Source of the DNA: Chlorobiaceae bacterium
GTDB taxonomy: Bacteria; Bacteroidota; Chlorobiia; Chlorobiales; Chlorobiaceae
Direction: 5' to 3'
Length of the DNA stretch: 39,699 nucleotides
Assembly: GCA_013334485.1 (NCBI GenBank)
Contig: JAAXXL010000021.1
Location: forward strand, 1-39,699
This document shows positions 1 through 25,262 of the stretch, one piece after another. Made by a program: the position numbers and the translations under genes. The notes beneath the pieces were generated by a model. It was not told where the DNA came from. It did no database searches and worked only from the letters and a program-made list of their open reading frames with translations. Within the stretch, counting starts at the first letter, position 1; the number at the start of each line of letters is the position of its first letter.

Positions 1-3000
1 TTCTCCGCACCCGGCCTGAGCATGGCAACAGCTGCTCCTGTCCATGACCACCAGAAAAGCTCCCAGATTGAAACGTCAAAGGTTACCGGTGTTTTCTGTA
101 AAATAACATCACCGGCGCCGATAGGGAAGGTGCGCTGCATCCAGAGAATACGGTTGAGAACCGCGTGATGCTCAATCAGAACACCTTTCGGCCTGCCGGT
201 TGAGCCGGAGGTAAAGATGATATAGGCCGGATCATCAGGTTCGGCACGTGACACCGGATCGGCCTCTTCAGCGACCGAAGGAAGGGTAATGGCTCGGCAT
301 CGCCCGCTCAATAACGCCGGCAGCGGTTGATCAACGAGAACAAGGGGGTTTCGGAACTCGTCGATCATCTCACAAAGACGCTCGGCGGGGTTGCTTGCGT
401 CAAGCGGAACATAGACACCTCCGGCCATCAAAATGCCGAATATTGCGGCAAGCATATCCTCTGAACGGGGGAGCAGTATGATGACGGCTTCCGCGCGACC
501 GAGTCCGCTGCTCTCAAGCAGAGCTGCCACGGCTGCGGCCCGGCGGGAAAAATTGCGGTAGTTCTGTGTGATACCGTCATGAGCGATTACCGCACGCTCA
601 GCAGCATGAGTGGCCGAGATCTCAAGAAACGGTTCAATAATCGAACGGCGTGTCGGCAGGGAGACGGCGGTATTGTTAAAGCTTTCCATAACCTCTTTCT
701 CGCCCGGAATCCAGATATCGAGAAGCGAAACCGCTTCTACGGGCCTGGCGATGACTGAGCGGGCAAGCGCCTCAAGGCGCCGGACGATCCGTAGAGCGCT
801 CTCCTCTTCAAAAAGCTCTGTCGAGTACTCCAGGAAGAGCTCTATGTTACCATCCCGCTTCATGAAGTTGAATGCAAGATCGAACTTTGCAAACGGCAGG
901 CGGGCCTGATAACTCCGGGTCTCCAGACCCGAAAGTCGGGGGGGTTCGGGAAGAAGATCCTGCCAGGCTACGAGAACATCAAAAAGCGGATTGCGGGAGA
1001 GATCCCTTGGCAGATTCAGGCTGTCGACAAGTCGGCCGAAGGGGCACTGTTGATCACAGAGTGCGGCCTGCCACTCAAGGTTGACCGAGGCAAGATGGTC
1101 AAGAAAGCTCTGATCGGGTTCTATCCGGCAGGGGAGCACCAGGGTATTGACCAAAAAACCGGCAAGATCGGCCATCTCGCTCCCCTCACGCCCGGATGAG
1201 AGGGCTCCAAGAGCAAAAGGTTCTCTCCGATTGTAACCGGAGAGCCGGTAAAGAAGCAGCTCCGAGAGAGCAAGCAGCATGACATAGGGGGTAACGCCTC
1301 TCTCTCCGGCAAGCCGGTCCAGCTCTCGACTGACCATAGAATCAAACCGGATATCGACCGCTGCACCCTCGTAGCTGCGGATTGCAGGCCGCTGCCGGTC
1401 AGATGGCAGATCGAGAGGTTCCGGCGGGGGAGTCAGCCGTTGAACCCTGCGCAGTATAAGCTCTCTGCTCTCCCTGCTCTCAAGAAACCTCTTCTCTGCA
1501 GCAACATAATCCCAAAGAGAGAACTCTGCCGGAGGAGGCGGAGCAGAGGAGAACCCTCTTTCAAAATCGTAGAAGCGGGCAAGATCGTCGAGAAGGATGT
1601 TCAGGCTCCATCCGTCGCAGGCTATATGGTGTATGACCATTAAAAATCGCCACTGCTCTTCACCCAGCCTGAAAAGAAAGGTTCTGACCGGAGCTTCGGC
1701 CTCAAGACGGAAGGGACGGCTGATCTCCTCCTCCATCCGCCGGTCGGCTTCAGTTTCCGGATTGCCCGAGAGTCTGCATTCAACGGTCTGAGGCAGAACT
1801 CCTCCGGGAGGAAGCAGGTGGTGGCGCACTTCGGGATTTGTATCATCTCCCGGACGAATGACAAGCCGCAGCGCATGATGGCGCTTTTCAAGAGAGAGAA
1901 GAGCACTGCTGAATGCCGCTGAGTCGAGTTTACCCTCTATGGCAAAAGAGAGCGGAACATTGTAGAGTGCCGTTGCCGGAGTAAGCTGCTGCAATATCCA
2001 GAGCCGTTCCTCGTTGTTTGAAAGGGGAAAATCCTCCGGCTCCTCCCTCAGCATCTCCAGGAGAGCAGTGCGATCCTTTTTGCCGTTTGCATTGAGCGGA
2101 AAGTGCTCAAAAGTTATAAAACGGGCCGGCATCATATAGAGGGGCAACCGTTCGGCAATACGGTTTCGCCAGGCCATTTCATCAGGTTGAGATGAGGAGA
2201 CAAAGGCTACCAGCGCCATCCCTTCTCCCTTGCCATTCACCATGGCCAGTGAATCGTTTACCCCCTTGCACCCGGAGAGAACCGCTTCAATTGCCGGGAG
2301 CTCGACCCGGTGACCGCGCAGTTTGATCTGGCCGTCTCTGCGGCCGCAAAACTCAAGCAGACCATCCTCTCTGAATCGTGCAAGATCGCCGGTGCGGTAG
2401 AGACGCTCTTCAGGGTTGTCGGGGTGTGTTACAAATACCTTCGCGTCAAGATCCTCTCCTCCGGCGTAGCCGATTGCAAGGCCGTCTCCGGCAGCATAGA
2501 GTTCACCGATAATGCCCGTTCCGCAAGGGCGCATGGCGTCGTCAAAGAGATAGATCCTTGTTCCTGCAACCGGGCAGCCGATCGGCACACTCCTGCCAGA
2601 CAGATCCTCCGGACGGACACTGTGAATAGCCGTAAATGTTGTGTTTTCGGTGGGTCCGTATCCATTAATAACCTGAAGCAAAGGGCAGGATTCCATCACT
2701 CTCTTGAGATGCACAATGCTCATTGCTTCACCGCCGCTTAATAAAACGCGAAGCGGTCTGAATGCAAGGGGAGCGTAGTCAGCAATCCGGTTGAAAAGTG
2801 AGGCGGTCAGCCACATGGCAGAGATACTCTTTTCCTGAATATAGTTTCCGAGCTTCTCCGGCTCCATCAACAGCGCATCCTCAATGAATACAAGCGTTGC
2901 GCCGTTCAGCAGAGTGCTCCATATTTCGAGGGTCGAAGCATCAAAACCAAAGGGAGCAGTCTGCGCCATGGACTCTCCCGGCTGGAGCGAGAGCACTCTT

Positions 3001-4067
3001 TTGTCAAAGGCAAGACGGCTGACTCCACGGTGCGGAATGATTACCCCCTTCGGTTTACCCGTTGAGCCGGAGGTGAACATGATGTAAGCCGGTTTGTCAC
3101 CGAAACCTCGATGCAGTTCCGGAAGAGCGCTACCGGGTGCATCGCGCTTCAGCTCTTCAATATCAAGCAGCCTGATACCTCCCGGATCACCGAAACCCTT
3201 CTCTGCAAAGAACCGTTCACCGGTTCGTCGGTCCGTGATTATCCAGTGTGCATCACAAACATCAAGAAGCTCCCTGACCAGCCGGGGAGGTAATTTCTCA
3301 TCCAGCGGCAGATAGGCTGCACCGCATTTGAGCACACCAAGCAGTGCGGCAACTGCTTCAGGTTTGCGCGGCAGTGCAAGTGCCACAACGCTGCCCGGCC
3401 CTACACCAGCGGCTGCGAGTCCGGCCGCAAGAGCTCCGGACCACTCTTCAAGCGCTTGATAGCTGTATGATTCATTGCGGTAGATGAGTGCGGGAAGATC
3501 ACGGTATCGCTCAGCCGCTGTGTGCCACAAAACGGCAAGTGAACTGTCACGGGGCCAGGGGGATTCTGCCGGATTGACGCCGGAAATAAAGGGCTTTCCG
3601 GGAGTGGGTGCCGGAGGGGATGCACTCTTTTCCGGTAAAGGAGTGCAAACCGGAGCGGTACCGGAAAGCTCGATCAGCGCTGCCATCCTGCCAAGTGTTC
3701 GCGCCGCTATTGCCTCTGCCAGATCAATTTTGCCGAGTCCCGAGACTTCGATCCGGTGAACCAGCCGCATGAGCAGAAGACTGTGGCCTCCAAGAATGAA
3801 GAAATCGTCGTTACGACTGCTCACATCGCTCCGGAGAAATTCACGCCAGAGAGCGGCAAGCCGTTGCTCCGTGTCCGTCAGTGGCTCTTCACTGCCACCG
3901 CACTCCTGCTGCAGAAATGCAATGAGTTCCGGCTTTGACTCCAGCACTTTTTGGCGGAGATCATCATTGAAAACCCCCTCCGGAGCATCAAAACAGAGGG
4001 TTCTGTTTTCAACACTGAGCTGTATATCGAGTGCCGAAAGCTCGGCAAGAAGCTTTTGAATCGACAT
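1..4067 (-). CDS. Nonribosomal peptide synthetase, docking-T-A-C-A (5' complete, 3' beyond window)
   Basis: Starts at ATG 4067, 6 nt after the exporter stop, and stays open to the left edge (1,355 codons visible). Order read from the translation: a TubC-like N-terminal docking domain (residues 1-55); a carrier (T) domain with the phosphopantetheine serine in GGHS at Ser96; an adenylation domain (about 165-665: FTSGSTGKPKG, Asp376 in FDAS, GYGPTE, YRTGDL, Lys663 in NGKKDR); a condensation domain (about 675-1090; HHIACDG at 813-819); and a second A domain (FTSGSTGRPKG, Asp1331 in FDVS) cut by the edge. No carrier lies between the first A and the C domain: about 12 residues separate NGKKDR from the C1-like motif. 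By-eye pocket residues of the first A give DALWLGGTFK, close to the published Val code DAFWIGGTFK. The second shows only Asp-Val-Trp at positions 235/236/239, as in Ser-type pockets. Product class is certain; substrates are inferences. Confidence 0.96.
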   Translation of the reverse strand, partial: MSIQKLLAELSALDIQLSVENRTLCFDAPEGVFNDDLRQKVLESKPELIAFLQQECGGSEEPLTDTEQRLAALWREFLRSDVSSRNDDFFILGGHSLLLMRLVHRIEVSGLGKIDLAEAIAARTLGRMAALIELSGTAPVCTPLPEKSASPPAPTPGKPFISGVNPAESPWPRDSSLAVLWHTAAERYRDLPALIYRNESYSYQALEEWSGALAAGLAAAGVGPGSVVALALPRKPEAVAALLGVLKCGAAYLPLDEKLPPRLVRELLDVCDAHWIITDRRTGERFFAEKGFGDPGGIRLLDIEELKRDAPGSALPELHRGFGDKPAYIMFTSGSTGKPKGVIIPHRGVSRLAFDKRVLSLQPGESMAQTAPFGFDASTLEIWSTLLNGATLVFIEDALLMEPEKLGNYIQEKSISAMWLTASLFNRIADYAPLAFRPLRVLLSGGEAMSIVHLKRVMESCPLLQVINGYGPTENTTFTAIHSVRPEDLSGRSVPIGCPVAGTRIYLFDDAMRPCGTGIIGELYAAGDGLAIGYAGGEDLDAKVFVTHPDNPEERLYRTGDLARFREDGLLEFCGRRDGQIKLRGHRVELPAIEAVLSGCKGVNDSLAMVNGKGEGMALVAFVSSSQPDEMAWRNRIAERLPLYMMPARFITFEHFPLNANGKKDRTALLEMLREEPEDFPLSNNEERLWILQQLTPATALYNVPLSFAIEGKLDSAAFSSALLSLEKRHHALRLVIRPGDDTNPEVRHHLLPPGGVLPQTVECRLSGNPETEADRRMEEEISRPFRLEAEAPVRTFLFRLGEEQWRFLMVIHHIACDGWSLNILLDDLARFYDFERGFSSAPPPPAEFSLWDYVAAEKRFLESRESRELILRRVQRLTPPPEPLDLPSDRQRPAIRSYEGAAVDIRFDSMVSRELDRLAGERGVTPYVMLLALSELLLYRLSGYNRREPFALGALSSGREGSEMADLAGFLVNTLVLPCRIEPDQSFLDHLASVNLEWQAALCDQQCPFGRLVDSLNLPRDLSRNPLFDVLVAWQDLLPEPPRLSGLETRSYQARLPFAKFDLAFNFMKRDGNIELFLEYSTELFEEESALRIVRRLEALARSVIARPVEAVSLLDIWIPGEKEVMESFNNTAVSLPTRRSIIEPFLEISATHAAERAVIAHDGITQNYRNFSRRAAAVAALLESSGLGRAEAVIILLPRSEDMLAAIFGILMAGGVYVPLDASNPAERLCEMIDEFRNPLVLVDQPLPALLSGRCRAITLPSVAEEADPVSRAEPDDPAYIIFTSGSTGRPKGVLIEHHAVLNRILWMQRTFPIGAGDVILQKTPVTFDVSIWELFWWSWTGAAVAMLRPGAE

Positions 4068-4073
4068 TTTTTT

Positions 4074-5708
4074 TCAAATCTGGGTTGCACCATCCGGTTC
4101 ATCGATCTGACCCTCATGCATCCTGTACATTCGATCAGCGAGATGGAACCATCGATCATCATGGGTGACCGAGATGATGATCTTGCCACGAGCCTTGAGA
4201 TCCGGCAGAAGCTCTTCATAGAAGATTCCGCGAAAATAGGGATCCTGGTCAGCCGCCCACTCGTCAAGTACAATGATCGGTTTGTCTTCAAGCTCCGCAA
4301 CAATGAGTGCAAGGCGCTTCCTCTGACCCGACGAGAGATCAATGGTGCTGAAGGTGCCGTTGATCACGCTGACTTTATCCTTCATTCCGAACCGCTCAAG
4401 CATCATGCTGATTTTTTCCTGATCCGTCTCATCGATTGAAGTGAGGCGTCGCGAGAGATGGAAATCGGAGAATATGGCGGAAAACTGGTTGCGGTAATCC
4501 TGCATCTGCCCGGTTCTAAGCTCAAGCCGGTCGGCCAGAAGGGAACCTGAATCAAGCGGAATAAGGCCTGTAAGCATCCGCAGCAGTGTCGATTTGCCTG
4601 AGCCGTTCCCTCCGGTGATCATGGTGATCTCTCCGGCACAAAACTCTGCATTGAGCGGGCCGACCTTGAAGAGAGAGTGACCTTTCTCGTCACGGAAAGA
4701 GAGTTCTGCCATTTTGAGGGCAATCGACCGGGGAGTTTTTTCAAGCAACTCGCTCTCCTCACTTGATGCGGATTTAGCGGCTGAAAAAAGCCTCTCCTTG
4801 ATTTGCTCAATATTTTCAAGTGCCATTTCCGCCTTGGTCACAAGCGGCGTTACAAAAGATACGGTACTTACCGGTCCCGAAATAAAAAGAACGGCAATTG
4901 TGGCAGGAAGAATAACGGCATGAAAGCCCGCAACCCATAATGGAACAACAAAAACCATAATGCCAACCAGTGAAAAGAGCATGGCTTCAATAACCGCATA
5001 ATTTCGACCCCATTGCGCTTTCAGAAGTGAACTCGACGTGCGGGACTCACGGGAGGCATCTGCCAGAGTGCTGGTCACATCATCGGCACGCATTCTGTTC
5101 ATCCTGATCTCCTTGAACCCGTGCAGAAGTTCGGTAAGAGCGTCAAAAACCCGCTTTTCAGCATCATCAGCCGCCTTCATCATGATGCGAAGAGCCCTGA
5201 CACGTGAAAAGCGTATGGCAACAGTCAAACCGGCAAGACCGAATGCAAGCAGACATGCCAACGGGGAGAGCCATGCAAGGTAGGCTGCCAGAAAAAGCAG
5301 CATGACCGCCTGCTGAAACCCGATCACCACCATGGGAAGCACCTCTGCAAGAATCTGGGTATCCTGGGTCAGCACACCCTGAAGCGCTGCATGGCCTATC
5401 TTCTCAATGGTCACCAGATCGGTTCGGCGGATAAGGTCGAAGAGGCCGGTACGAAGTTTGTGTATGAGCCGCTCGGTATCCCTGGAGGCTGTTACAAGGG
5501 TATAGATGTGTGTTACATGGTAGAGTGTAACTGTTATGGCAAACATCAGCATAAGGCGTCCGCTGATCTGACCTGTTCCCCCCTCATTTGCCGCAGTTGA
5601 CACAAGAGCAACAAGCGACATTGTTGCAACCGCCGACAGGATATTCATCAAGAGGAGCGGCTTCAGATTTTCAGGTATCTCCTTCAAAACCGCCTTGTAT
5701 AGTCTCAT
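4074..5708 (-). CDS. Cyclic-peptide-type ABC exporter, TMD-NBD half transporter (second of pair)
   Basis: A 544-residue fused ABC half-transporter. About six hydrophobic segments fill residues 1-290, followed by a nucleotide-binding domain with Walker A GGNGSGKST near residue 368, signature LSSGQRKRLAL near 457 and Walker B IIVLDEWAADQDP near 480. The DEWAADQDP form is typical of the PvdE/SyrD family, which exports nonribosomal peptides and siderophore precursors across the inner membrane. The ATG at 5708 overlaps the stop of the preceding exporter gene (ATGA), and the stop is 6 nt before the NRPS2 start. This points to translational coupling and co-expression with the synthetases. The likely role is export of the cluster product, probably as a heterodimer with its neighbour. 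The substrate cannot be read from the sequence. Confidence 0.93.
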   Translation of the reverse strand: MRLYKAVLKEIPENLKPLLLMNILSAVATMSLVALVSTAANEGGTGQISGRLMLMFAITVTLYHVTHIYTLVTASRDTERLIHKLRTGLFDLIRRTDLVTIEKIGHAALQGVLTQDTQILAEVLPMVVIGFQQAVMLLFLAAYLAWLSPLACLLAFGLAGLTVAIRFSRVRALRIMMKAADDAEKRVFDALTELLHGFKEIRMNRMRADDVTSTLADASRESRTSSSLLKAQWGRNYAVIEAMLFSLVGIMVFVVPLWVAGFHAVILPATIAVLFISGPVSTVSFVTPLVTKAEMALENIEQIKERLFSAAKSASSEESELLEKTPRSIALKMAELSFRDEKGHSLFKVGPLNAEFCAGEITMITGGNGSGKSTLLRMLTGLIPLDSGSLLADRLELRTGQMQDYRNQFSAIFSDFHLSRRLTSIDETDQEKISMMLERFGMKDKVSVINGTFSTIDLSSGQRKRLALIVAELEDKPIIVLDEWAADQDPYFRGIFYEELLPDLKARGKIIISVTHDDRWFHLADRMYRMHEGQIDEPDGATQI

Positions 5709-7354
5709 ACCTGGCCCTCCCGGTTTACGTGCAGTTCTGTCAGGCGTCCATACTCAAGGTGAAGACGGCGGTCTGCTGCGTCAAAATACCGGTCATCATG
5801 CGTCACTGCAATAATGGTCAGGCCCCTGCGCTTTAGTTCAGGCAGGATCACCCGATAGAACTTCTTCCTGAAATAGGCATCCTGGTCTGCGGCCCACTCA
5901 TCAAGAATCAGTATCGGCTTTTTCTCAAGCAGCGCAGCTACAAGAGCAAGACGTTTGCGTTGCCCGGTTGAAAGCTCTGTTCGGGTAAACTGGTTGCCGG
6001 TGATAGCGACCACTTTGTCCATCTCCATCCACCCGAGCAACTCTTCGGCTGCAGGGGAGTCGACCTCTCCGAGGCCGTAAAGGTGCGTAAAGAGATGAAA
6101 GTCAGAAAAGACCGGTGCCATGAGGGCACGATATCCGACAAGCAGGGAAGGAGTTATAACCAGCTTGTCCTGATAGAGATGGCCACGATCGGGATGATAG
6201 AGAGAGGTCAGCAGTTTTATCAAACTCGACTTTCCGGAGCCGTTGCCGCCGGTTATGAAAACCACCTCTCCCCGTTTGATGGTTACGTTGAGAGGTCCGA
6301 GAGTGAAGGGTGTTTCACCCTCAGGCGCCGGATAGGCAAACTCCATATCTTCCATACGTATCTCACTGAACTCAGGCGAAAAGCTCTCCCGAAGCTCCTC
6401 GCTGCAGGGCTCAACAATATTGATCAGTTCGCCCTCAAGCTCCATCATACGGCCTGCGGCAGCTTTGGCGGCACGTAGTACTGTCAGGGATTGCATCAAC
6501 CCGAAAACAGGAGGAACCATAAAGAGCACCGCTGCCGATATCTTGACCAGCTCGGTGCGCACCGAAGGGGAGTAGAGAGGAATAACAAAAACCACAAGCC
6601 CCAGCATGAGATTGAACATGGTTTCGCCGAATACAAACTGCTGCCACCCCTGGCGGTGCATTTCACTGCGTGAGGAGACCGTATGCAGTGATAGCTGATT
6701 GAACTCCTCACCAAGAGCTCCGCTCCGTCGGGAGGAGAGACGCTGCTCCTTGAATCCGTCAAGAAGGTCGGTAACACATTCGAAAAGTTTCCCTTCATCA
6801 CCGGCCAGCACCTCCTGACACTTCTCCAGAGAGAGCCCGAGGCGATAGTAGACTGTTGTTGCTACGGCAAGCAGCGCCGTCAGCATAATGCAGGAGAGCA
6901 GGGAGACTGTTGCAATATAGATGAGAATCATCCCGATCTGGATAACCGATCGGGTCGTCAGTGCAAGGTATTGGGAGTTTGATGAAACAACCTTGCAGCT
7001 CTGGGTGATGTTTGTAAAGAGCCTGCTTTGACCGAAGTGCTCCAACTGCCAGAGATCAGCATGACGCAGCCGGTAGATCAGCTTCATGCGAAGCAGATCT
7101 ATCGCCTGTTCGATATCGGCGGCAAAGCGCTCAACCAGACGTGTTTCAAAGATCACATAAGTCAATAGAGCGACAAGAAAGAGCGCGGCAAGCGGCAGAT
7201 TAACGAACTCCTCACGGGTTCTGTCGATCTCTTGGGCAGCAAAGGTAACCACTGAAAGCACAAGAGTGGTGCTCAGTGCCGAGGCTGAAGCAAATGCAAT
7301 AAGCTTCCGCAGAGGTTTGCCACCGATCAGATGCAGGAGACGAAGTAAAGACAA
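5705..7354 (-). CDS. Cyclic-peptide-type ABC exporter, TMD-NBD half transporter (first of pair)
   Basis: A 549-residue paralogue of the next gene, with an N-terminal membrane domain (about residues 1-300) and a C-terminal ATPase. Walker A GGNGSGKSS lies near residue 372, signature LSTGQRKRLAL near 463 and Walker B ILILDEWAADQDA near 480, with the switch His in VTHDDRY. The start is TTG at 7354. A strong AAGGAG lies six bases before it, and no in-frame ATG is better placed. It precedes its partner with an ATGA overlap, which suggests stoichiometric production of a heterodimeric exporter of the PvdE/SyrD type. A 232-nt gap separates it from the epimerase gene upstream, so an extra promoter for export and NRPS2 may sit there. 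Confidence 0.93.
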   Translation of the reverse strand: MSLLRLLHLIGGKPLRKLIAFASASALSTTLVLSVVTFAAQEIDRTREEFVNLPLAALFLVALLTYVIFETRLVERFAADIEQAIDLLRMKLIYRLRHADLWQLEHFGQSRLFTNITQSCKVVSSNSQYLALTTRSVIQIGMILIYIATVSLLSCIMLTALLAVATTVYYRLGLSLEKCQEVLAGDEGKLFECVTDLLDGFKEQRLSSRRSGALGEEFNQLSLHTVSSRSEMHRQGWQQFVFGETMFNLMLGLVVFVIPLYSPSVRTELVKISAAVLFMVPPVFGLMQSLTVLRAAKAAAGRMMELEGELINIVEPCSEELRESFSPEFSEIRMEDMEFAYPAPEGETPFTLGPLNVTIKRGEVVFITGGNGSGKSSLIKLLTSLYHPDRGHLYQDKLVITPSLLVGYRALMAPVFSDFHLFTHLYGLGEVDSPAAEELLGWMEMDKVVAITGNQFTRTELSTGQRKRLALVAALLEKKPILILDEWAADQDAYFRKKFYRVILPELKRRGLTIIAVTHDDRYFDAADRRLHLEYGRLTELHVNREGQV

Positions 7355-7360
7355 TGGACT

Positions 7361-7366
7361 CTCCTT
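7361..7366 (-). promoter_or_regulatory. Shine-Dalgarno supporting a TTG start
   Basis: On the minus strand AAGGAG occupies these positions, with a 6-nt spacer before the TTG at 7354-7352. It decides the start of the first exporter gene in favour of TTG. Confidence 0.75.
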
Positions 7367-7479
7367 GTTATTAAGACAGGGTTTCGTACCCGCTCTTTCA
7401 GAAACAGCAATGCAACTGTAAATTCGTAAAAAAACAGAACAATAAGAGAAAATAACCCCGTATTTTTATCTGCGGCTCC

Positions 7480-7502
7480 GTTTGCTTTACCATAAAGCGA
7501 AC
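7480..7502 (-). other. Ten-base-pair hairpin in the 232-nt gap of the NRPS operon
   Basis: Positions 7480-7489 pair with 7493-7502 (one G-T pair) around a 3-nt loop. The hairpin lies between the epimerase stop and the exporter start. No U-run follows it on the transcribed strand, so it is not a standard terminator. It could be a processing or stabilising structure that separates expression of the export half from the synthetase half. The rest of the gap is AT-rich and shows no ORF. Confidence 0.35.
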
Positions 7503-7586
7503 AATGCAGGAAGCAACGTCAATACAGAAAAAAATAACCATATTCCCTCAATAAAAAACATTTTACCGCTCTAAACCTCTAATCTT

Positions 7587-8831
7587 TCAACGATATATCA
7601 ACTGCACGGCTTCCTCAACGTGACTCCTGAAAGAGTCACAGAGCAATTTGTGACGATCTTCCTGCAGTGAGCTTTCAAACCAGAGCCCGATTTTCCCTTT
7701 CCGGCCCAGTCCATTTATATCGACAATGTTTCCGAACCGGTTAAGTGGGCTCATGCTTTCACCGCTGGGCTCCTCAATGCAAATCTGCCAACTGCTCTCG
7801 TCAATGCCGATGAGCCGTTCAAGATAGTTAAAGAGAATCCCGGGAAGCTTCTCATAACTGTATAATGCCCCGTATCCGATTCCCTGGGCGGGAACGGCTC
7901 TTAACCTTGCCCTGTTCATCCTGATTGTCTCTTCAATACCGCTGCCGACAGTCAGACAAAGAGGAAAAAGCGTTGTAAACCATCCGACTGTCCGGCTGAC
8001 ATCAAGAGGCACAGAAACTCCCTCCCGTCCCGGTTTTTCAACGGTTATCCAGTTCTCCTTTTGTCCGCTCACTTCAAACATTGCACAGGCCAGAGCACCG
8101 AGCAGCAGATCACTTATTTGCGGAGTGCCGTATGCAGGAGCTGGCTGCTGTAAGGTCGAAACTATCTCCGGAGAAAATTCAACCCTGTTGCATTGCATCG
8201 GAGAGTTACCCGCTTCACTGAGTTTCTGCCAGAGCTTTTGGCCCTCCTCCTCAGCCGATCGTGACTTCTCCCAGTAGCTCCGCTCTTCTTGCGTTGCCGT
8301 CAGGGCGTATGACTTTACGGCTTCAACCCACTCCCGGTAACTGCAGCTCCTCTTTTCGGGCTCTCTCTCCAGGTAGAGTGCTTTCAGATCCTCACGGATG
8401 ATCGACCAGCTTGCCGCATCAACCACCATGTGGTGTATCGCAAGAAAAATCCTTTCACTCCCATCTGCATACCCTCCGAGAATCCCGCTCTGCCAGAGAT
8501 AGCCACGTTCAAGGTCAAAGTGGTTTTGCCATCTCGTCAGCGTTTCAACTATCTCCAGCTCACTTTTCCCTTCTGTATCAAGCTCCTTCAGCTCAACAGC
8601 CGTGCTCTCTTTCAATAAGCACTTGCCCCCGGCAGGATAGTGTGCCCTGAGCATTCCATGCCTCAGGCTCAGCTTCTCCAGTGCAACCACCAATCGCTGT
8701 TTGTCAATCGGCTCATTGACGCGGAATAGAAAGGAGTGGTTGAAGTGATTGCGCTTTTCAAGCGGTCTCGTCATAAACCACTCCTGAATGGGCAGATAAT
8801 CGAATGTTTCTGATGATGTCATAATACTCAT
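7587..8831 (-). CDS. Free-standing NRPS epimerization domain
   Basis: A 414-residue single-domain protein with the E-domain motif series in order: LPIQEWF (E1, start of the protein), HHMVVDAASW (E2), SDLLLGAL (E3), VEKPGREG (E4 region), RTVGWFTTLFPL (E5), PAQGIGYG (E6) and FNYL (E7). RTVGWFT, GIGYG and FNYL distinguish E domains from condensation domains. E domains epimerize the alpha-carbon of carrier-bound aminoacyl or peptidyl thioesters and are normally embedded after a T domain. This one is separate and would have to act in trans. The usual Gly of HHxxxDG is Ala, and the His of EGHGRE is Pro, but the catalytic His pair and the Glu are kept. The ATG overlaps the NRPS1 stop by 4 nt (ATGA), so it is probably translationally coupled. 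A C-type function is less likely. Confidence 0.88.
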   Translation of the reverse strand: MSIMTSSETFDYLPIQEWFMTRPLEKRNHFNHSFLFRVNEPIDKQRLVVALEKLSLRHGMLRAHYPAGGKCLLKESTAVELKELDTEGKSELEIVETLTRWQNHFDLERGYLWQSGILGGYADGSERIFLAIHHMVVDAASWSIIREDLKALYLEREPEKRSCSYREWVEAVKSYALTATQEERSYWEKSRSAEEEGQKLWQKLSEAGNSPMQCNRVEFSPEIVSTLQQPAPAYGTPQISDLLLGALACAMFEVSGQKENWITVEKPGREGVSVPLDVSRTVGWFTTLFPLCLTVGSGIEETIRMNRARLRAVPAQGIGYGALYSYEKLPGILFNYLERLIGIDESSWQICIEEPSGESMSPLNRFGNIVDINGLGRKGKIGLWFESSLQEDRHKLLCDSFRSHVEEAVQLIYR

Positions 8832-14800: not shown

Positions 14801-17800
14801 GGAGAGGGGCAGGTAGATGGCACCACTTTTCCATATACCCAGCAGTGCTGCCGGAAGGTTCGGTGAACGACCGGTCAGAACCGCTACCACACTCCCTTTT
14901 GAGACTCCGCATTCTGAAAGTGCGTGAGCAATGGCGTCAGCCTCATTATCAAGCTCCCTGTAGGTGATCTGGCGATCCGGTGTTATGACTGCCGGCCTGC
15001 CAGCCTGACCCGGCAGACCAGTGATACGCTCAAAAAGGTGGTGAACACAGAGTTGCGGGCGCTCGATCATCTCTCCCTGTTGCCATGCGCCAAGCATGCA
15101 CAACTCCTCCTTGAGGAGAGAGGGAAGGGGACGATCCGCATTTTCCTTGCTTTCCGCAAGCCATCGAGCCCATCCTCTCAGCGCTTCAAGCCAGATCCGG
15201 GCCGTCTCCTGACTGTAAATGGCGGCATTGACATGCCATTGCAGCAGAATTTCCCCTCTCTCCAGATTCTCATGGATAAGCACCATATCCTGGCCGGGTG
15301 AATTGCCGGTAAATTCATACCGGATTGATTCATCCGGATTTCGGGAGCGTGAAAAACAAGAGGCTCCACCAACCCTGTTGCTGCCTGGATTTTCCGTTAC
15401 TGCAATATCAAAAAGGGGATAGCGCTGTGGATTGCGCAGTTGCGGACGATCGTTCCAGAAAGAGTGGCAGATGCGGGAAAACGGGAGCCTGGCATGCTGC
15501 AGTGCCTCGGCGAGGTGTTGCTGTGTTGATTGAAGGAGTTCGCTGAAGGTTCGCTGACGTTCTGCCTTGAGATGGAGGGGGAGCATATTCACTCCATAGC
15601 CGACTATCAGTGAGTCGGACGCTCGCTCCCGGAGAGAAGCCGTGGTACCGATCATGATGTCGCTCCTGCCGGTGCGCCGGCCGGCTTCGAGTGCGAGAAG
15701 CGAAAGAATCAGCGAGTGTAGCGTTGCACCATTATTGCGCGCAAGAGCTTTGAGCACATCGGCTGTCCGGCACTCAAGGAGTAGCTCAAAACGATGGCTG
15801 CCCGTTGCACTCCTTGAGGATCGAGCCATGTCGAGAGGCCACTCCTCAAATGCCGGATCCGGTACCTGATGCAGGAGGTTTTTCCAGTGGAGCGCCTCTT
15901 TTGTCGCCTCCGGAGAAGCAAGATAGGAATACTCACGTGCAGCAAAGAGTTTCCCGCCTTTCACCTGCCCTGAGAGCTCACCCGCCTGAAGCAGGGTGGT
16001 CAGTTCACTCAACAGGGTAGCGATCGACTGCCCGTCACCAAGAGCGTGATGAAGCGCCAGCCAGAAAAAACGCTCCTGCCCCTCTGCGGTTTCAACAAGA
16101 CCGGCCCGCCACAGAGGAGTTGCACTCATCGAAATGGAGGTGAACTGCCGTTCGCGTATCAGGCCGAGAGCATCGGCCCGGGAGAAGGTCTGTGAAGATT
16201 CAAGCGTCCACTCAACATCATCAGCAATATGGCGTCTTAATTGTCCGGTTTCATCCTCCGCAAAACTGCTCCGTAAAGCTTCATGGCGCTTTACCAGAAT
16301 CGCCCATGCACTCTGGAGGCGATCTGTTGTAATCTCTCTGCTTATGAGATAGTCAACCGGAATAATGAAATTACGGGTATCAAGTCCGGCTGACTCTGCA
16401 ATCCAGAACTCATGTTCACCTTCAGAGGCAAGAGCACTCTCCTCTTCGACAGCATCCTCCTGGGAGAGCGGCTCCAGGGTTGCTATTGTTGCGACAAACA
16501 TCCTCAGTGTCGGAGCCGCAAAGAGCGCGCGTGCAGAGACCGGCAACCCGAGTGTTTCTCGTATGCGATGAGCCACGGTTACGGCAAGCAGACTGTTACC
16601 GCCGAGGGCGAAGAAGTTGTCGCTTCCGACAACACTCTGCTCAAGCAGATCGGCCCAGATGGCACCTACCTTTCGTTCAAGCGGACTCTGAAGCATCTCC
16701 ACATGAACGTCACTCTTTCGCTTCTCCTGCAGAGAGCTGAAGAGTGCCATCCGGTCAACTTTTCCGGAAGGGGTAAGCGGAATAACTGCTACCGCCATGA
16801 TTGAAGCCGGAACCATATGCAGCGAGAGGTGCCCGGATAGATAGTCAAGAAGCTTTGCCTCGGAAAACAGGCTCATATTTTCGGGTTGCACAAAAGCCCT
16901 AAGCACCTTCACTCCGCTCTGCAGCTCATCGGCAAGCACAACAGCAGTGACAACTGAAGGGTGCAGGGAGAGCATCTGCTCTATTTCGCCAGGCTCAACA
17001 CGCTGACCGTTCAGCTTGATCTGCTGATCGATTCGACCGCTGATTTCAAGTTGACCTTCCCTGCTCCATCTACCATAGTCGCCTGAGCGATAGAAGAGGC
17101 CTTCCGGGCTCTCTACAAAGTGCATCGCACTCTCCTCAGGCTGATTGAGATATCCCCGGGCGATCCCCAGACCGCCGAGCCAGATCTCACCCTCTGCGCA
17201 GGGAGGAACCGGAGAGCCGTCATCCCTACGGACAGAAATCTGCATGTTGGAGAGGGGAGTGCCCACGCTGATGGGGCATCGAGGATCGTGGTCACCCGGA
17301 ATCAGAGCCCCCGACACCACAATGGTCGCCTCGGTAGGGCCATAAAAATTCCAGAATGCGACACTGCCTGCGTAGAGCGCAACATCGTTATGGTTCGGAG
17401 CCTCTCCTCCGGTGAGCAGAATACGCAATCCTTCGAACGGCAGTTTCTCGCTGACCCTGAGGTATGACGGCGTATGAAAGGCAACGGTGACGCCAAGATC
17501 GCGATAGTATGGCTTCATCTGCCACGGATCTTCACGAAGTGCGGGGGCAACCGGAACCATAGCAATCCCGCTGAAAAATCCGTGGCCCATCTCCCAGAGG
17601 GATGCATCAAAAGTGATGGTCGAAACAAGTGCGATACGGTCATCATCTCGAAGCCCTATGCGCTCTGCAACACCAACTATTGTATTGATATATGCAGCAT
17701 GTGTTACGGGAACCCCTTTTGGAGTGCCGGTCGTTCCCGAGGTATAGATAATGTAGGCAACATCATCCACTGTTCCGTCAATCTCCGGTCGCAGCGCTGA

Positions 17801-20800
17801 AGGTGAAGAATCCTCCGGTCGGATAATGGCATCAAACTCCCGCGAGAGAGCCTCTGGCGTGGTGAGACCGTCAAGGACAATAAGATGCTTTGCGCGGGCA
17901 TCTCTGGCCATTGTTGCCAGTCGAGCTGCGGGAATATCAGCAGAGAAGGGGAGATAGGATCCTCCTGCTTTCCATATTGCGAGCACTGTAGCCGGGAGAT
18001 TTCCGGGAGCTGAAGCAAGTACAGCAACAACTGTACCCCGCACCACACCGTGACTCTTGAGGCATGCTGCAATGCCGTTTGCCCGGAGATCAAGATCCAT
18101 GAAGGATTCGAACTTCTCTCTTATGATAATTGCCGGACGACATGGATTGTGATCAACAATAACTTCGAAAAGTTCATGACTGCGCCGCTCTGTCCGGATC
18201 TGCTTCGCCCCGTTTTCCCATATCCGGAGCAGCTCCTGCTCTTCCGGAAGCAGTGCGGGCAGCGGCTGCTCCATCCTTTCAGGATCTTCAGCCAGCCATC
18301 GAGCCCATGCAGCAAATGAAGAGAGCCACGCCCTGGCGCCCTCAATCGAGATCACTTCAGCGTTCCAGCTCAACAGCAGATTCAAGGCGCCACTCTCTTC
18401 AGCAGAAGGTTCATGACTGAAGGAGAGATCAAGACCGGCGGCCGGATGCCTGTCTTCTCCAGTGAGAGTAAGGGGCTCCAGCGTGATACCGCTCTTGCGG
18501 TCAATGCTGGTGCGGGAAGGAATTGCGGTCAGGGCAATATCGAAAAGTGAAGTCCGGGATGGTGCGCGAAGGTCGGGATAGCTCCGGCGAAACTCTCTGT
18601 AGAGCATGCCTGCTGGATAAGCTGCATGTTCAACGGTTTCAGTCAATGCTGACTGGGTAGTGCGCAAAAGAAGCGAAAAGGGGAGATCGCCATCCTTCAA
18701 AAGAATAACAGGAAGGAGGTTGACGAAATGGCCGACTGCGTTCTCATCCCCGGCAGGTCTGATGGTAATGCCGCTTCCGATCAGAATGTCACTTTTTCCG
18801 GAGCGGCGCCTGATCTCCGAAGCGAGAACGGCCAGAAGCAGGGCATGCAACCCGGTTCCGCAGCGTTTAGCCAGCCGCCCGAGAGTGCTCACCGTCGCTG
18901 CATCAAGCTGCTCCACAAGAGGCTCATCGCCATCTGATCCGGACAATGCGGGACGCTGATGTTCCGTTACATATTCACTGAAGGCACCGCTCGCTCTTGC
19001 GGCTAAAGCCTCCAGACTGCTCGACCAGAATATGCGGTCGCGTTCGGCTTTTCCAGAGTGCAGATAGAGACGCTCTGCCCTGCTGGCCATGGCAATGCCG
19101 TTTGGTGCCGTTTGCAGCCGAACTCCGCCAAGCAGAGAGAGCAGATCATCCTGTATGATTTTGGCGGATGTGCCGTCCACAACAGAGTGGTGGAGCACGA
19201 ACCAGAAAAGTGTTTTCCTGCTTTCCTCAATCCTGACAATACCAGCCCTGGCTAAAGGGGGATCATCAAGCTTGAACCGATCATTTGCCCGGCGTTCAGC
19301 GATGCTGCGGCCCTCTGCTCCTGAATGACAATGATCAATCCGAAGTGCTGCGTGAGCGGATAACTCGCATGAGGAAACGGTTCGCCAGCAGATCCGGCCC
19401 GATTCATCTGCATATAACGCTGTTCGCAGCGCAGCATGGCGATCAATCAACCCTGCCCAGGCCGATTGCCATGCATTATTTGAAAATTCGCGACCTCTGA
19501 CATAGAGAACGCGCACAATGTGTGACGCTGCCGGATCAAGATCGAGCTCCGAGGCAATCCAGAAATCCTCCTGGTCTGCCGTTGCAATATCAGAAACAGT
19601 CTGATCCTGGTTGCCGGGAAGTTCAGGTTGCAGCTCAATCTCAGAGATCTTTTCTGCAAGTCCCCTGATGCTCAGGGTGCTCAGAACCATCTGCACCGGA
19701 ACATGGTAACCAAGCAGATGCAAACGCTGACTTACAGCAATGGCAAGCAGACTTGTTCCGCCTGCGGCAAAGAAGTTCTGCTCTCTCATGATCGGTCGGA
19801 CATCAAGAAGCTCCTCCCAAATTGAGGCGATGGCCTTTTCAATATCTCCCTCCGGAGGGGTAGAGCAATCTCCTTCTCCAGCGCCGTTAAAGAGGATACC
19901 TTCTGCAATCTCCTGAAGGGCTCTCTGGTCAACCTTGCCTGCCGAGCTTAACGGCATCTTCTCCAGCACGACAACATGTGCAGGAATCATATAGGAAGGT
20001 AGAGTCCTTTGAAGAAACTCACGCCACGCTATCGCTTTCGCATCTGCTAAATCATGGGACTCGACAAAGGCATAAAGCATCTTTTTAAGATGTAAAACCT
20101 TTGCGATCTTAACTGCAGGATGGCGCTGGAGCGCAAGCTCAATCTCATCAAGCGAAACCGCCTGCCCGGAAATTTTTACCGCATTGTCTGATCTTCCGAG
20201 TGTTTCAAGTTCACCGTTGCTGTTCCATCGGGCAAGGTCACGTGAACGGAAAGCTCGCCCATAACGTGTTTCAATAAAATACTCTGCGTTCAGTTCAGGT
20301 TGCTTCAGATAGCCTGGAGAAACACCGACACCAACAACATGAACTTCACCGATTTCGCCTTGCGGCACCTCATTTCCCTCCTCATCGAGCAGATAGACCT
20401 CCGTATTTGCAAACGGCCGGCCGCTCAACACAGTACCCGTTTCATCGGGATCGACATGATGCATGCAAATGGTACCGCACACCTCAGTTGCGCCGTGTAC
20501 ATTCCAGTAATCAACATATTCGGCATAATATCTCGCATCATCAGCATTCGGCAGTTCACCGGCAGTTATGACACAGCGAAGCCCCTCAGGAACTGCCCTG
20601 TCAAGAAGATGAAGGTATGATGGGGTAAAAAGCGCGATTGAAACATGGTGGCGACTCATCAACTCAATCAGGAGATCAGGTCTGTCTACTACAGATCGTG
20701 ATACCGGGACAAAGGCTGATCCTGAAATCAGGGGAATGCAGAGCGTTCGGAAACCAAGAATAAATACAGGAGAGGAGGAGAGCAGGATGCGGTCTTCACT

Positions 20801-21391
20801 GGTGATATGATGCGCCTCTATATGACCAAGTACCATATTGACACAGGCGGCATGGGTCAGGGGTACCCCTTTCGGAGTCCCGGAAGAGCCGGAGGTAAAG
20901 AGAATTGCCGCAAGAGCATTGGCTCCGCCGTTCCGCTCCGCGGAGGTAAGGCTCTTTGTTCCCGGCGGACTCAACTCCCCGGGTCTCAAAACCGCATCGG
21001 ATGGAGAAATGGCTCCGTTGTGTAAAAGAGCCTCTGTCAGCACCGAAGGAACAGCAATACCATCAAGAACAATCAGAATGCGCAGAGCGGCCTGTTCAGC
21101 CATGTTAGCAAGGCGCTCCGGAGGCAGGTCGGCCGCCATGGGGACATAGACACCGCCCGCTTTGAGAATTGCAAGAAACGCTGCCGGCAGATCTGCTGAC
21201 CGTTCTGTGAGAACACCGATTGATTCTTCAGACATGATTCCACGGGATTGCAGTGCAACGGCAAGCCTGTCGGAAGCTGCGTCCAGTTCGCTATAGGTTA
21301 AAAGAAGATCATCAGTAATAATTGCGGGTGCGGAGGGCTGGAGGCTCGCTGATATTTTGAAATAGTCATCTATTTTCTGGTGATACTGCAT
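8828..21391 (-). CDS. Four-module NRPS with terminal thioester reductase (A-T-C-A-T-C-A-T-C-A-T-R)
   Basis: A 4,187-residue synthetase that starts with no C domain. A1 spans about 20-500, with T1 at Ser547. C1 carries HHSVVDG (734-740). A2 has FDAS Asp1262, with T2 at Ser1600. C2 carries HHALGDG (1781-1787). A3 has FDVS Asp2314, with T3 at Ser2652. C3 carries HHAVGDG (2833-2839). A4 has FDLW Asp3371, with T4 at Ser3719. An R domain follows: GATGYLG from 3821, and YxxxK at Tyr3985/Lys3989. R domains use NAD(P)H to release the thioester as an aldehyde or alcohol. Pocket residues read by eye: A2 DAWFLGFIVK (near the Leu code DAWFLGNVVK); A3 DVSDVGAITK and A4 DLSTMVGAAK (no code I recognise). A1 has Ile211 in place of the invariant Asp. 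The ATG at 21391 lies 6 nt after the radical SAM stop. No E, MT, Cy or TE domain is present. Confidence 0.97.
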   Translation of the reverse strand: MQYHQKIDDYFKISASLQPSAPAIITDDLLLTYSELDAASDRLAVALQSRGIMSEESIGVLTERSADLPAAFLAILKAGGVYVPMAADLPPERLANMAEQAALRILIVLDGIAVPSVLTEALLHNGAISPSDAVLRPGELSPPGTKSLTSAERNGGANALAAILFTSGSSGTPKGVPLTHAACVNMVLGHIEAHHITSEDRILLSSSPVFILGFRTLCIPLISGSAFVPVSRSVVDRPDLLIELMSRHHVSIALFTPSYLHLLDRAVPEGLRCVITAGELPNADDARYYAEYVDYWNVHGATEVCGTICMHHVDPDETGTVLSGRPFANTEVYLLDEEGNEVPQGEIGEVHVVGVGVSPGYLKQPELNAEYFIETRYGRAFRSRDLARWNSNGELETLGRSDNAVKISGQAVSLDEIELALQRHPAVKIAKVLHLKKMLYAFVESHDLADAKAIAWREFLQRTLPSYMIPAHVVVLEKMPLSSAGKVDQRALQEIAEGILFNGAGEGDCSTPPEGDIEKAIASIWEELLDVRPIMREQNFFAAGGTSLLAIAVSQRLHLLGYHVPVQMVLSTLSIRGLAEKISEIELQPELPGNQDQTVSDIATADQEDFWIASELDLDPAASHIVRVLYVRGREFSNNAWQSAWAGLIDRHAALRTALYADESGRICWRTVSSCELSAHAALRIDHCHSGAEGRSIAERRANDRFKLDDPPLARAGIVRIEESRKTLFWFVLHHSVVDGTSAKIIQDDLLSLLGGVRLQTAPNGIAMASRAERLYLHSGKAERDRIFWSSSLEALAARASGAFSEYVTEHQRPALSGSDGDEPLVEQLDAATVSTLGRLAKRCGTGLHALLLAVLASEIRRRSGKSDILIGSGITIRPAGDENAVGHFVNLLPVILLKDGDLPFSLLLRTTQSALTETVEHAAYPAGMLYREFRRSYPDLRAPSRTSLFDIALTAIPSRTSIDRKSGITLEPLTLTGEDRHPAAGLDLSFSHEPSAEESGALNLLLSWNAEVISIEGARAWLSSFAAWARWLAEDPERMEQPLPALLPEEQELLRIWENGAKQIRTERRSHELFEVIVDHNPCRPAIIIREKFESFMDLDLRANGIAACLKSHGVVRGTVVAVLASAPGNLPATVLAIWKAGGSYLPFSADIPAARLATMARDARAKHLIVLDGLTTPEALSREFDAIIRPEDSSPSALRPEIDGTVDDVAYIIYTSGTTGTPKGVPVTHAAYINTIVGVAERIGLRDDDRIALVSTITFDASLWEMGHGFFSGIAMVPVAPALREDPWQMKPYYRDLGVTVAFHTPSYLRVSEKLPFEGLRILLTGGEAPNHNDVALYAGSVAFWNFYGPTEATIVVSGALIPGDHDPRCPISVGTPLSNMQISVRRDDGSPVPPCAEGEIWLGGLGIARGYLNQPEESAMHFVESPEGLFYRSGDYGRWSREGQLEISGRIDQQIKLNGQRVEPGEIEQMLSLHPSVVTAVVLADELQSGVKVLRAFVQPENMSLFSEAKLLDYLSGHLSLHMVPASIMAVAVIPLTPSGKVDRMALFSSLQEKRKSDVHVEMLQSPLERKVGAIWADLLEQSVVGSDNFFALGGNSLLAVTVAHRIRETLGLPVSARALFAAPTLRMFVATIATLEPLSQEDAVEEESALASEGEHEFWIAESAGLDTRNFIIPVDYLISREITTDRLQSAWAILVKRHEALRSSFAEDETGQLRRHIADDVEWTLESSQTFSRADALGLIRERQFTSISMSATPLWRAGLVETAEGQERFFWLALHHALGDGQSIATLLSELTTLLQAGELSGQVKGGKLFAAREYSYLASPEATKEALHWKNLLHQVPDPAFEEWPLDMARSSRSATGSHRFELLLECRTADVLKALARNNGATLHSLILSLLALEAGRRTGRSDIMIGTTASLRERASDSLIVGYGVNMLPLHLKAERQRTFSELLQSTQQHLAEALQHARLPFSRICHSFWNDRPQLRNPQRYPLFDIAVTENPGSNRVGGASCFSRSRNPDESIRYEFTGNSPGQDMVLIHENLERGEILLQWHVNAAIYSQETARIWLEALRGWARWLAESKENADRPLPSLLKEELCMLGAWQQGEMIERPQLCVHHLFERITGLPGQAGRPAVITPDRQITYRELDNEADAIAHALSECGVSKGSVVAVLTGRSPNLPAALLGIWKSGAIYLPLSVELPPERIGFMAEDAGATHLIVLDGVALPEVLSCLFSDPLRPEELTGEYLQQYAQRAENVGDPEDTAYILYTSGSTGRPKGTLIAHKSLVNMVLGAAAILGFNADDRSLLFASPSFDVSLSDIGLPLLTGGTICAVPKHIIESPKRFLDFLQEMRITVADITPTYLGLFEGMELPSSVRVLVTGGEAPLPADVYRYAPKLSYFNAYGPTENTITSTMGVLTGDDRRFLSCGRPLPNTTLFVCNEEGSALAPGVAGEVWLGGLGISQGYLNRPELNASCFRESPHGRLYRTGDLGRWHMDGTIEIIGRIDEQVKLNGIRIEPGEIEYALMLHPAISQAVVLLQEQPGGAKSLWGVVRPAPGEQMPGMDAWKTFLMERLPSHMIPSGVISVDSIPLMVSGKVDRGALLDLLDLHPLNSGLTLPEDELESSIAGIWSDLLKRTPIHREDNFFALGGHSLLAISVAHRLEKQLGREVPARELFAEPTLAGFSERVRELRATEEGTLDGLSDLATEGQREFWTAEHAGLDTSGFNIPLTLLLHLEAPSPEKFSALWSELIERHEALRTGFLEDESGLLRRVVSDKVDALPLFQFSSTLQEARALANSFQSEPFSMSQPGLWRAGLITVGENPQSVFWFVMHHAVGDGLSLGILIDELSALLTGSALSVLSAGFDRPAAREAAYLESSSALFDAEYWNNLTGGLLKHSPEAFDEWPLDSLRPNSRSASSCVGSHCLRTILGRETANGLRSLAKRNRSTLHAFMLALLGLEVRRRTGRNSFMLGTAASTRQSGDEMRTIGYFINMLPLVFRAPESPSVDAVVQQMQHQLAEALQHSRYPFSRIYSDFRRNQEPGVHPGRYPLFDIAVTENPPFTPSEEREPLFSGLGLPEYGVVGYEVRKNAPAQDMVLVHEGEADGGVVLTFYVNAVIYSESSARRMFDSLIGWMRFLSMENNGGSPPLPLLLPEEEAQLACWQQGALRTWPAKTLPEHFLRIASLYPGRPAVVTAGAELSFHLVNTRAETLARVLLKRDVQPGDTVAVLTERSTTLQETVLAIWKAGACYLALSADLPPQRLAFMARECSVRVIIALDQLPLPPELGGDEFHIVRPEEMPNDPADSGELDRTVAPDDPAYIIYTSGSTGLPKGVVLSHRGLLNLGFGESEIFDLHSDDRVMQIASPSFDLWISDLAVSWAAGAALVPVRREEMNDIPCMHDLIRHRGVTIATMSPSYLRLFEQAEFPAHLRLIMTVGESPVSDDARYYAPKLSYFNGYGPTENTAASSLGRILPDQEAIHTGRPLPNTTIYITSEEGKPLPPGSIGDVWVGGASLAKGYLNRPDLTASAFLFVKGERRYRTGDLGRWLPSGELQILGRRDTQVKLRGQRVELGEIEHRLASWPGIQQAVTIVETDADHSQFLRSFVTADEEASIPTYVEWTTWLSATLPSWMIPASIIRIPSIPLTPAGKVDREALLESQSQMAFPLADEGSESEHQFNRTPPQSAIEKRISEVWSELLRKPMLSREDHFFDIGGDSLKAIAVINRLGREFECTVNNLYEHPVLSDFALLCNPRPDHLRNLLLSLSIEQECSESLQQDAGYDQEELLRPQRLHYEERVAADLKRDLRLCRSYRHLLLTGATGYLGSYLLRELLADKSVEVTVLVRSSDTVAGRRRLAQVLNWYFGPDEGSALLENPRLKLLSGDLRHAQLLLREYDYSLLSDTVDAIYHCAANVNHIGHYRDFLADNVSATRHLLRLAAQQSGKSADFHFVSTLSVAASALYGESRLFTEYDSPPEVLDDNYYIRSKQEAERLVLAYRSELPDCTIHRVGNISFAAKGSRLQQNIRDNAFFRQLAAFIRLGVVPMEFPASLSHVDLVARSIIALSERESLANEIHHIETSRRDSLADVILPAEGMRESVRACSFGDFLARLQEATGEHEMESAVAETVENFGLQSANPGLAGRHKVMVVSKRTLLLLENFGITWPSIPKEGLNALLAMAMEVAGR

Positions 21392-21397
21392 GCGATC

Positions 21398-22708
21398 TCA
21401 GACCGTACCGTTTTTCTCGGGAAAAAGAGCTGTCTGGTAGCCGAGACAGCGGTATCCGTTTGCTGCAGAGTCGTGATCAATACTCCTCACCCATTCCCCG
21501 TTTTTACCCAGCTCCTGCTTTACCCAGTTGCATATGCTGATCGTTATGCCATATTCAGTAGCCGAGTTCCTGATCTTCTCCAGATAGCCTACACAGATGC
21601 TTCGTTCAGGGGCGAGCCTGGAGCGCTGTTTGATATGGTTCTGATTTTCGCCTGACAGATAGGGCCTGAAAAACTCACCGATGAGTTCAGGATCGAAGTG
21701 ATTGATGTAATTTGCAAGAATTACCAGATTGCGTATTTCGGTAGTCAGAAATTCCGGCTTGATATTTCGTATACCGGCTGAAGCCAGATGTGACATGTAT
21801 CGGTCGATGTTCTCTTCGGTAAGGTAGGGGAGCATAAGCGGCTGACAGAGCACTGACTCGGCAAACATACCAAGCTCCCGGCATTGCACCAGAGTCTCAA
21901 GACGCTCCTCAATGGAGGCTGCATTTGGTTCAAGTACATCGCGAAGATAGTGCGGCATAATGCCGATGCTGCCGTTTATCTGGATTTTTGATGCAATTTT
22001 GCCCATCAGAGAGAAAAGTGTATCCCCCTTGTGCATCACCTGCAAATGTTTTGGCCCTGCTTTTGTAGCAATAAAAATACGCACCGGAGAGTCAGGGTAT
22101 TTATTAAAATGGCTAATAAAGGTCCGAAAAATATCGTGGGCTATACCATTGTAGAGGTGCGGCTCGGAGAACGCTTCGGTTTTCGGCGAAAAGTAGTAAA
22201 AGAGCGCCTTCTGACGATTCTCTTCAAGCGAGTTGGCCAGCCGGTCTGCATAGTTGGTGTAGACCGTGATCGGTTTTACATGGTTGCCATCGGTAACAAG
22301 GCAGTACTGGCAGGCAACCGCACAGGAGCCCGAAGAAGGGGAGACCTCAAGAACATTTGTAGGGCAGAGACCTGTGTAGTTATGAATCTCCAGTGGCTCA
22401 CCGGGATCTGTAAGCGCTTCCTCGAAATGATCGCCGGGAGTAAGATTATTGTTTTCATAAAGTTTGCGAAACCACTCTGAACCAATTTCAAGACGGGATG
22501 CAACGTCGGGAGTAATCTCATAGTCCAGACCAAGATTGATGAGCAGTTTACTGTCGATTTTCAGGGGCACAAAGCCCTTCAATTCAGTACAGTCCGGTCG
22601 ATGTGCTATGTAGCTGAAAAGCGTGTGTACAGGCATTGGTGCCTGTTTTGAATTGCTGTCTGAGTGGGCGGCGAGATTTGTTTCAGGGGGCATAAACGGG
22701 GGGTTCAA
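21398..22708 (-). CDS. Radical SAM protein at the head of the NRPS operon
   Basis: A 436-residue protein with the radical SAM cluster motif CAVACQYC (Cys129, Cys133, Cys136), which binds a 4Fe-4S cluster and cleaves S-adenosylmethionine to make a radical. The overall look, with the motif preceded by a long N-terminal region and followed by further Cys residues, recalls spore-photoproduct-lyase-like (SPL) radical SAM proteins. That assignment is only by eye. Its stop is 6 nt before NRPS1, so it should be co-expressed and may modify the peptide, a building block or the starter unit. The start is TTG 22708, with an AAGGG about 11 nt upstream. ATG 22693 (five codons in) is the alternative. There is no clear SPASM domain, though C-terminal cysteines exist. 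The reaction is unknown. Confidence 0.85.
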   Translation of the reverse strand: MNPPFMPPETNLAAHSDSNSKQAPMPVHTLFSYIAHRPDCTELKGFVPLKIDSKLLINLGLDYEITPDVASRLEIGSEWFRKLYENNNLTPGDHFEEALTDPGEPLEIHNYTGLCPTNVLEVSPSSGSCAVACQYCLVTDGNHVKPITVYTNYADRLANSLEENRQKALFYYFSPKTEAFSEPHLYNGIAHDIFRTFISHFNKYPDSPVRIFIATKAGPKHLQVMHKGDTLFSLMGKIASKIQINGSIGIMPHYLRDVLEPNAASIEERLETLVQCRELGMFAESVLCQPLMLPYLTEENIDRYMSHLASAGIRNIKPEFLTTEIRNLVILANYINHFDPELIGEFFRPYLSGENQNHIKQRSRLAPERSICVGYLEKIRNSATEYGITISICNWVKQELGKNGEWVRSIDHDSAANGYRCLGYQTALFPEKNGTV

Positions 22709-25132: not shown

Positions 25133-25249
25133 ACAGCCCGGTTTTCACTCTATTTTTGCCTCCATCTCTGGAATCGGTTATATTTTACTATATTTATTTA
25201 TGAGTATTTACGTGTAATAAGTGCAATCAACTTTACAACAAATTGAATA

Positions 25250-25255: not shown

Positions 25256-25262
25256 ATTACTT

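Follow-up and report, generated by a model that had tools for sequence, protein, structure and literature searches.

The window analysed here is the whole of one contig (C97; 39,699 nucleotides) of a Chlorobium metagenome-assembled genome (MAG) that comprises 2.59 Mb in 130 contigs. Its placement in this genus is based on relatives of the encoded radical SAM protein: one relative, with 89% identity, comes from Chlorobium ferrooxidans DSM 13031, and the other close relatives stem mostly from MAGs of the Chlorobiaceae. All five condensation-domain matches of the MAG are located on the window. The coordinates of the open reading frames (Table 1) bear out the contiguous series of minus-strand genes described in a first-pass annotation: intervals of only 6 nt separate the radical SAM gene from NRPS1 (21392-21397) and ABC2 from NRPS2 (4068-4073), ATGA overlaps link NRPS1 to the epimerase gene (8828-8831) and ABC1 to ABC2 (5705-5708), and a single gap of 232 nt (7355-7586) lies between the epimerase gene and ABC1. 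Since the identical gene order recurs in many Chlorobium genomes, with protein identities mostly between 55 and 90%, the arrangement is not due to chance. Moreover, the cluster extends further than first annotated, up to about position 25799, as three divergently oriented genes that co-occur with it had been overlooked. The G+C content is about 0.50-0.56 at positions 1-22000 as compared to 0.42-0.49 at positions 25000-39699, and this contrast between the cluster and its right flank would fit an acquisition by transfer. A gene for a PemK/MazF-like toxin is present on the minus strand at 32248-32586.

Table 1. Genes and domains of the peptide synthetase locus and their positions in the window.
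Feature	Position	Strand	Remarks
NRPS2	3..4067	-	Cut off by the end of the contig; TubC_N-T-A-C-A...; 1355 aa present, relatives about 1720 aa long
ABC half-exporter 2 (ABC2)	4074..5708	-	TIGR01194 cyclic peptide exporter, 330.2 bits (cut-off 286.2)
ABC half-exporter 1 (ABC1)	5705..7354	-	PvdE/SyrD-like; TIGR01194 278.6 bits (cut-off 286.2)
Stand-alone epimerization (E) domain	7587..8831	-	414 aa; HHMVVDA, GRE, RTVGWFT; optional
NRPS1	8828..21391	-	4187 aa; A1-T1-C1-A2-T2-C2-A3-T3-C3-A4-T4-R; core gene, predicted reductive release
NRPS1 R (thioester reductase) domain	8831..10081	-	TGATGYLG, YIRSK
NRPS1 A1 domain (approx.)	19890..21391	-	Pocket code ILRLIAVGT; Asp235 missing, Arg at 239
Radical SAM enzyme	21398..22693	-	Spore-photoproduct-lyase-like fold, CxxxCxxC; ORF opens at TTG 22708; proposed optional tailoring gene
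SPFH/Band-7 membrane protein	23096..23977	+	Weak HflK/HflC similarity; co-occurs with the cluster
LivK-like periplasmic binding protein (Peripla_BP_6)	23981..25132	+	Adjoins the SPFH gene in relatives
DUF697 protein	25263..25799	+	Third gene of the divergent set

The domains of NRPS1, of the epimerase and of the exporters were confirmed by Pfam, NCBIfam and motif scans. NRPS1 is indeed the four-module, reductase-terminated synthetase that had been annotated: it contains four A, four T and three C domains and one R domain, and every core motif is intact (HHxxxDG, GGxSL, the A-domain motifs, the Rossmann motif and YxxxK). The terminal R domain exceeds the cut-off of PF07993 (139.8 versus 20.1 bits) and stays below that of the TIGR01746 thioester reductases (176.1 versus 213.35 bits); it is also matched by the NCBIfam models for MxcG and AusA, and among solved structures it comes closest to MxaA and the AusA R domain. 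NRPS1 thus belongs to the synthetases with complete A, T and C domains and a terminal Rossmann-type reductase. It shares the NAD(P)-dependent terminal thioester reductase, and thereby the predicted release of an aldehyde or alcohol, with AusA (aureusimine), MxcG (myxochelin) and the pyrazine synthetase ATRed (PMC7586950). It differs from these systems in having four modules and an A1 domain devoid of Asp235, and in being accompanied by an epimerase presumed to act in trans, a radical SAM protein and the divergent SPFH/LivK-like set.

The pocket codes of the four A domains vary little between the genomes: ILRxxAxGT for A1, DAWFLGFIV for A2, DVSDVGAIT for A3 and DLSTMVGAA for A4. These codes were extracted with a GrsA reference segment, and this reference reproduced its own known code. 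The A1 domain lacks the amine-binding Asp235, so the starter may be something other than an alpha-amino acid. We take the A2 code to resemble those for leucine, and the A3 code presumably resembles those for arginine. Most likely, NRPS1 joins four building blocks, with the unusual A1 domain selecting the first, and the R domain would then use NAD(P)H to free the product in its aldehyde or alcohol form. Our guess for this product, to be taken as a lead and not as a result, is the aldehyde or alcohol of an acyl-Leu-Arg-X peptide. Leupeptin-type aldehydes as well as the cyanobacterial spumigins and aeruginosins are reductively released peptides, several of which carry Arg-like residues. The aeruginosins are also treated in PMC3765200. 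The likeness of the predicted product to these compounds rests on the Leu- and Arg-like codes of NRPS1. A different outcome, which we consider possible even if somewhat improbable, is that the R domain yields a cyclic imine or pyrazinone, or by four-electron reduction an alcohol, and that the peptide functions in signalling or metal binding instead of inhibiting proteases in the manner of leupeptin. This idea is in line with MxaA and the AusA reductase being the nearest solved R domains, and with the pyrazines and pyrazinones that are made by ATRed-type synthetases (PMC7586950). However, the tetramodular layout and a possibly blocked N-terminus, as expected from an A1 domain without Asp235, would disfavour a head-to-tail imine, and the sequence does not separate an alcohol from an aldehyde.

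The proposal, made at first sight of the locus, that it makes and exports a small reductively released peptide is supported; the catalytic motifs are intact throughout, and the product itself is a prediction. Both proteins match the pyoverdine/syringomycin-type exporters (TIGR01194) over nearly their whole length, ABC2 above the cut-off of this family and ABC1 just below it. In contrast to these exporters, ABC1 and ABC2 are two different adjoining genes, and they probably form a heterodimer that would export the peptide.

The analysis of 65 Chlorobium genomes identified the ABC pair in 16 and the NRPS1 R domain in 15 of them; in the sixteenth genome with the ABC pair, G348, NRPS1 is cut by the end of a contig. 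The four-module NRPS1 and the ABC pair are the core of the cluster. The SPFH gene (at least 80% identity) was found in 15 of the 16 genomes with the ABC pair but in none of the 49 others, which indicates that the divergent trio goes with the cluster. In relatives, the genes for the LivK-like and DUF697 proteins normally come after the SPFH gene. G348 has a broken piece of the SPFH gene next to the cluster and an intact copy on another contig. The region of the divergent promoters is only partially conserved. We suggest that the trio may serve the same product, be it in sensing, immunity or membrane handling.

The truncated NRPS2 lies within the stretch that had been read as one complete unit. 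This part of the first-pass annotation is not supported as it stands: in intact relatives, NRPS2 is the first gene of a separate NRPS-PKS line that ends in a thioesterase (TE). In the window, a carrier domain precedes the first A domain of NRPS2, and none is recognisable after the second. NRPS2 is present in what we call type I clusters (the window, G007, G015, G012, G021, G069, G010 and G348), and where the contig extends further, it is followed by NRPS3, a phosphopantetheinyl transferase (PPTase), NRPS4 (KS/DH/KR/C/A) and NRPS5. NRPS3 consists of an A domain with an inserted methyltransferase (seen in L018:1358-6541), a T domain and a TE. Type II clusters (G016, G032 and G227) carry a completely different second line, i.e. 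two unrelated NRPS-PKS genes on the opposite strand, again with a TE. Finally, no second line is present beside the exporters in G091, G304, G277 and G352; at least four genomes thus carry the core without another assembly line. As the second line can be swapped or absent while NRPS1 is conserved, NRPS1 and the exporters are an independent unit, and NRPS2 would begin a second, independent assembly line. One might object that NRPS1 to NRPS5 form a single long line for one compound, given that they are encoded on the same strand with short gaps in the type I clusters and that there is only one exporter pair. We regard this as very unlikely: NRPS1 ends with a reductase and NRPS3 with a TE, and NRPS1 is conserved both next to the unrelated gene pair of type II clusters and in the four genomes that have no second line.

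The radical SAM protein probably starts at the ATG at 22693 rather than at the TTG at 22708, since this codon, corresponding to Met6 of the open reading frame, is invariant in all eight orthologues (8/8). The match of the protein to the Pfam model is below the cut-off (17.3 versus 29.5 bits). Nevertheless, the original assignment is right as judged by the CxxxCxxC motif and a predicted radical SAM barrel, and the predicted function is the cleavage of SAM to the 5'-deoxyadenosyl radical. The motif is invariant, the invariant cysteines being C115, C129, C133, C136, C393 and C421; for C115, C393 and C421 this was assessed with 23 relatives. In a structure comparison, the AlphaFold model (pLDDT 82, pTM 0.83, 23 sequences) was clearly most similar to spore photoproduct lyase (SPL; Z 19.5, rmsd 3.5 over 279 residues), followed by the next family with a Z of 14.3. 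The closest fold is thus that of SPL, and there are weak profile matches to SPL and the SPL-like families Rv2578c and PA0069, whereas the identity to these proteins is only about 10% and no family cut-off is reached (17.2 versus 437.55 bits for TIGR03886, the SPL family). A sequence search of the PDB with this protein returned chance antibody matches only.

The second putative tailoring protein is a lone E domain, again as first annotated. It is E-like rather than C-like and has the E motifs, and all its PDB matches with E values of 1e-10 or better are synthetases that bear E domains (PvdL and the bacitracin, gramicidin and tyrocidine synthetases); its score against TIGR01720 is 36.5 bits (cut-off 74.2). 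As compared to the fused E domains of these synthetases, it has kept the motifs GRE and RTVGWFT, but it is a separate protein without a carrier domain of its own, and HHMVVDA replaces HHxxxDG. A literature search on stand-alone epimerization domains found nothing.

These two genes do not belong to the core. Nine genomes contain both the radical SAM and the E gene, in the case of G277 on two different contigs. Two genomes have the radical SAM gene without E: G033, with an E remnant of 25 residues, and G227, in which any remnant is weak at best. Three genomes (G091, G304 and G010) have neither, and G091 and G304 contain just NRPS1, ABC1, ABC2 and the PPTase gene, with no second line. In G352, there is no E gene between NRPS1 and ABC1 and the position of the radical SAM gene is not visible; in G348, the position of the E gene is not visible. 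An E gene without the radical SAM gene was not seen among these Chlorobium clusters. As judged from the NRPS1 tree, the simplest history has the joint absence of both genes arising on two or more occasions, once in G010 and once in the pair G091/G304. The trees of NRPS1 and of the exporters disagree on G010: with strong support in each case, the NRPS1 of G010 groups with those of G016, G032 and G227 but its exporters with those of G012, and this conflict indicates that NRPS1 was probably exchanged there by recombination. The radical SAM and E genes are thus dispensable, optional add-ons. Of the complete make-modify-export unit that had been proposed, the NRPS1/exporter core stands, whereas the modifying enzymes are dispensable (both in G091, G304 and G010, E alone in G033 and G227). 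As most of the genomes are MAGs, the absences could be assembly errors. Moreover, the presence of the two genes in most clusters, and of a radical SAM-NRPS1 pair in a MAG of the Prolixibacteraceae, may mean that they carry more weight than the word optional implies. With a probability of roughly two in three, we conclude that this is a locus of interchangeable blocks: the core of NRPS1 and exporters, the optional radical SAM and E genes, and the separate line that begins with NRPS2.

How might the radical SAM protein and the epimerase act? Most likely, they form an optional tailoring block that would modify the peptide either on its carrier or after release. A narrower idea, which we consider less likely than not, is that the SPL-fold radical SAM protein and the free E protein act in trans on the synthetase-bound peptide, as a block that is gained and lost on an otherwise fixed, reductase-ended NRPS1. 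The codes of A2 to A4 and the ILR-type code of A1 are near-constant in NRPS1 proteins with or without the two enzymes, and this makes tailoring likelier than the supply of a precursor, even if a nine-residue pocket code can miss a change of substrate. A comparison of per-domain identities between NRPS1 proteins from clusters with and without the radical SAM and E genes revealed no domain that stands out as the module acted upon. It is likewise conceivable, if doubtful, that the radical SAM protein makes a free precursor, an unusual acid or amino acid, for A1 or A4. Elsewhere, members of its family are encoded beside Cp1B-like ligases, DegT aminotransferases and glycosyltransferases or beside a C-A-T-TE NRPS, and Cp1B itself joins a non-amino acid with an amino acid (PMC12568646). 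In addition, A1 lacks Asp235, and the A4 code fits no assigned substrate. On the other hand, clusters devoid of the radical SAM gene show hardly any change in the A1 and A4 codes, and no aminotransferase or precursor gene is fixed beside this gene in Chlorobium. The feeding of A1 in particular is weakened by the constancy of its code.

At an E value of 1e-60, a phylum-wide genome sample contained no relative of the radical SAM protein outside of Chlorobium, and a search of a plasmid collection gave one weak match. In a scan of genome contigs, relatives were detected in Bacteroidales, Thiotrichaceae and Bacillota. The one MAG of the Prolixibacteraceae encodes a pair of radical SAM (65% identity) and NRPS1 (51% identity) proteins, and in Bacillota the relative is located beside a different NRPS (C-A-T-TE). 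In Bacteroidales, the family occurs with a glycosyltransferase, a DegT aminotransferase and a ligase related to Cp1B, an ATP-grasp amide ligase that couples a non-amino acid with an amino acid (PMC12568646). This set, consisting of the radical SAM, Cp1B-like ATP-grasp ligase, family-2 glycosyltransferase and DegT aminotransferase genes, recurs around 8-15 kb in loci L045, L046, L049, L050 and L051, and may serve to attach an unusual acyl or amino acid group to sugars of the cell surface. The common theme of the three settings is amide-bond formation: the neighbours are amide-bond-forming enzymes and not DNA-repair genes, which sets the family apart from SPL, Rv2578c and PA0069.

In agreement with the first-pass annotation, our literature search found no described cluster with the same combination of genes and no published description of this one, and a search on radical SAM proteins with reductase-terminated NRPS found nothing either. 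The nonribosomal peptides of green sulfur bacteria appear to have received little or no attention in the literature. Judged from the sequence, Chlorobium thus has a real and, as far as the literature search shows, undescribed variant of the reductase-ended NRPS loci, a gene set predicted to build, release and export a small peptide. The cluster recurs across the genus, including the named strain C. ferrooxidans DSM 13031, and the natural set of clusters with and without the radical SAM and E genes makes their chemistry readable by strain comparison. Finally, the radical SAM family with the SPL fold is linked to enzymes of amide-bond formation in each of its three settings, and may be a lead to a new reaction.
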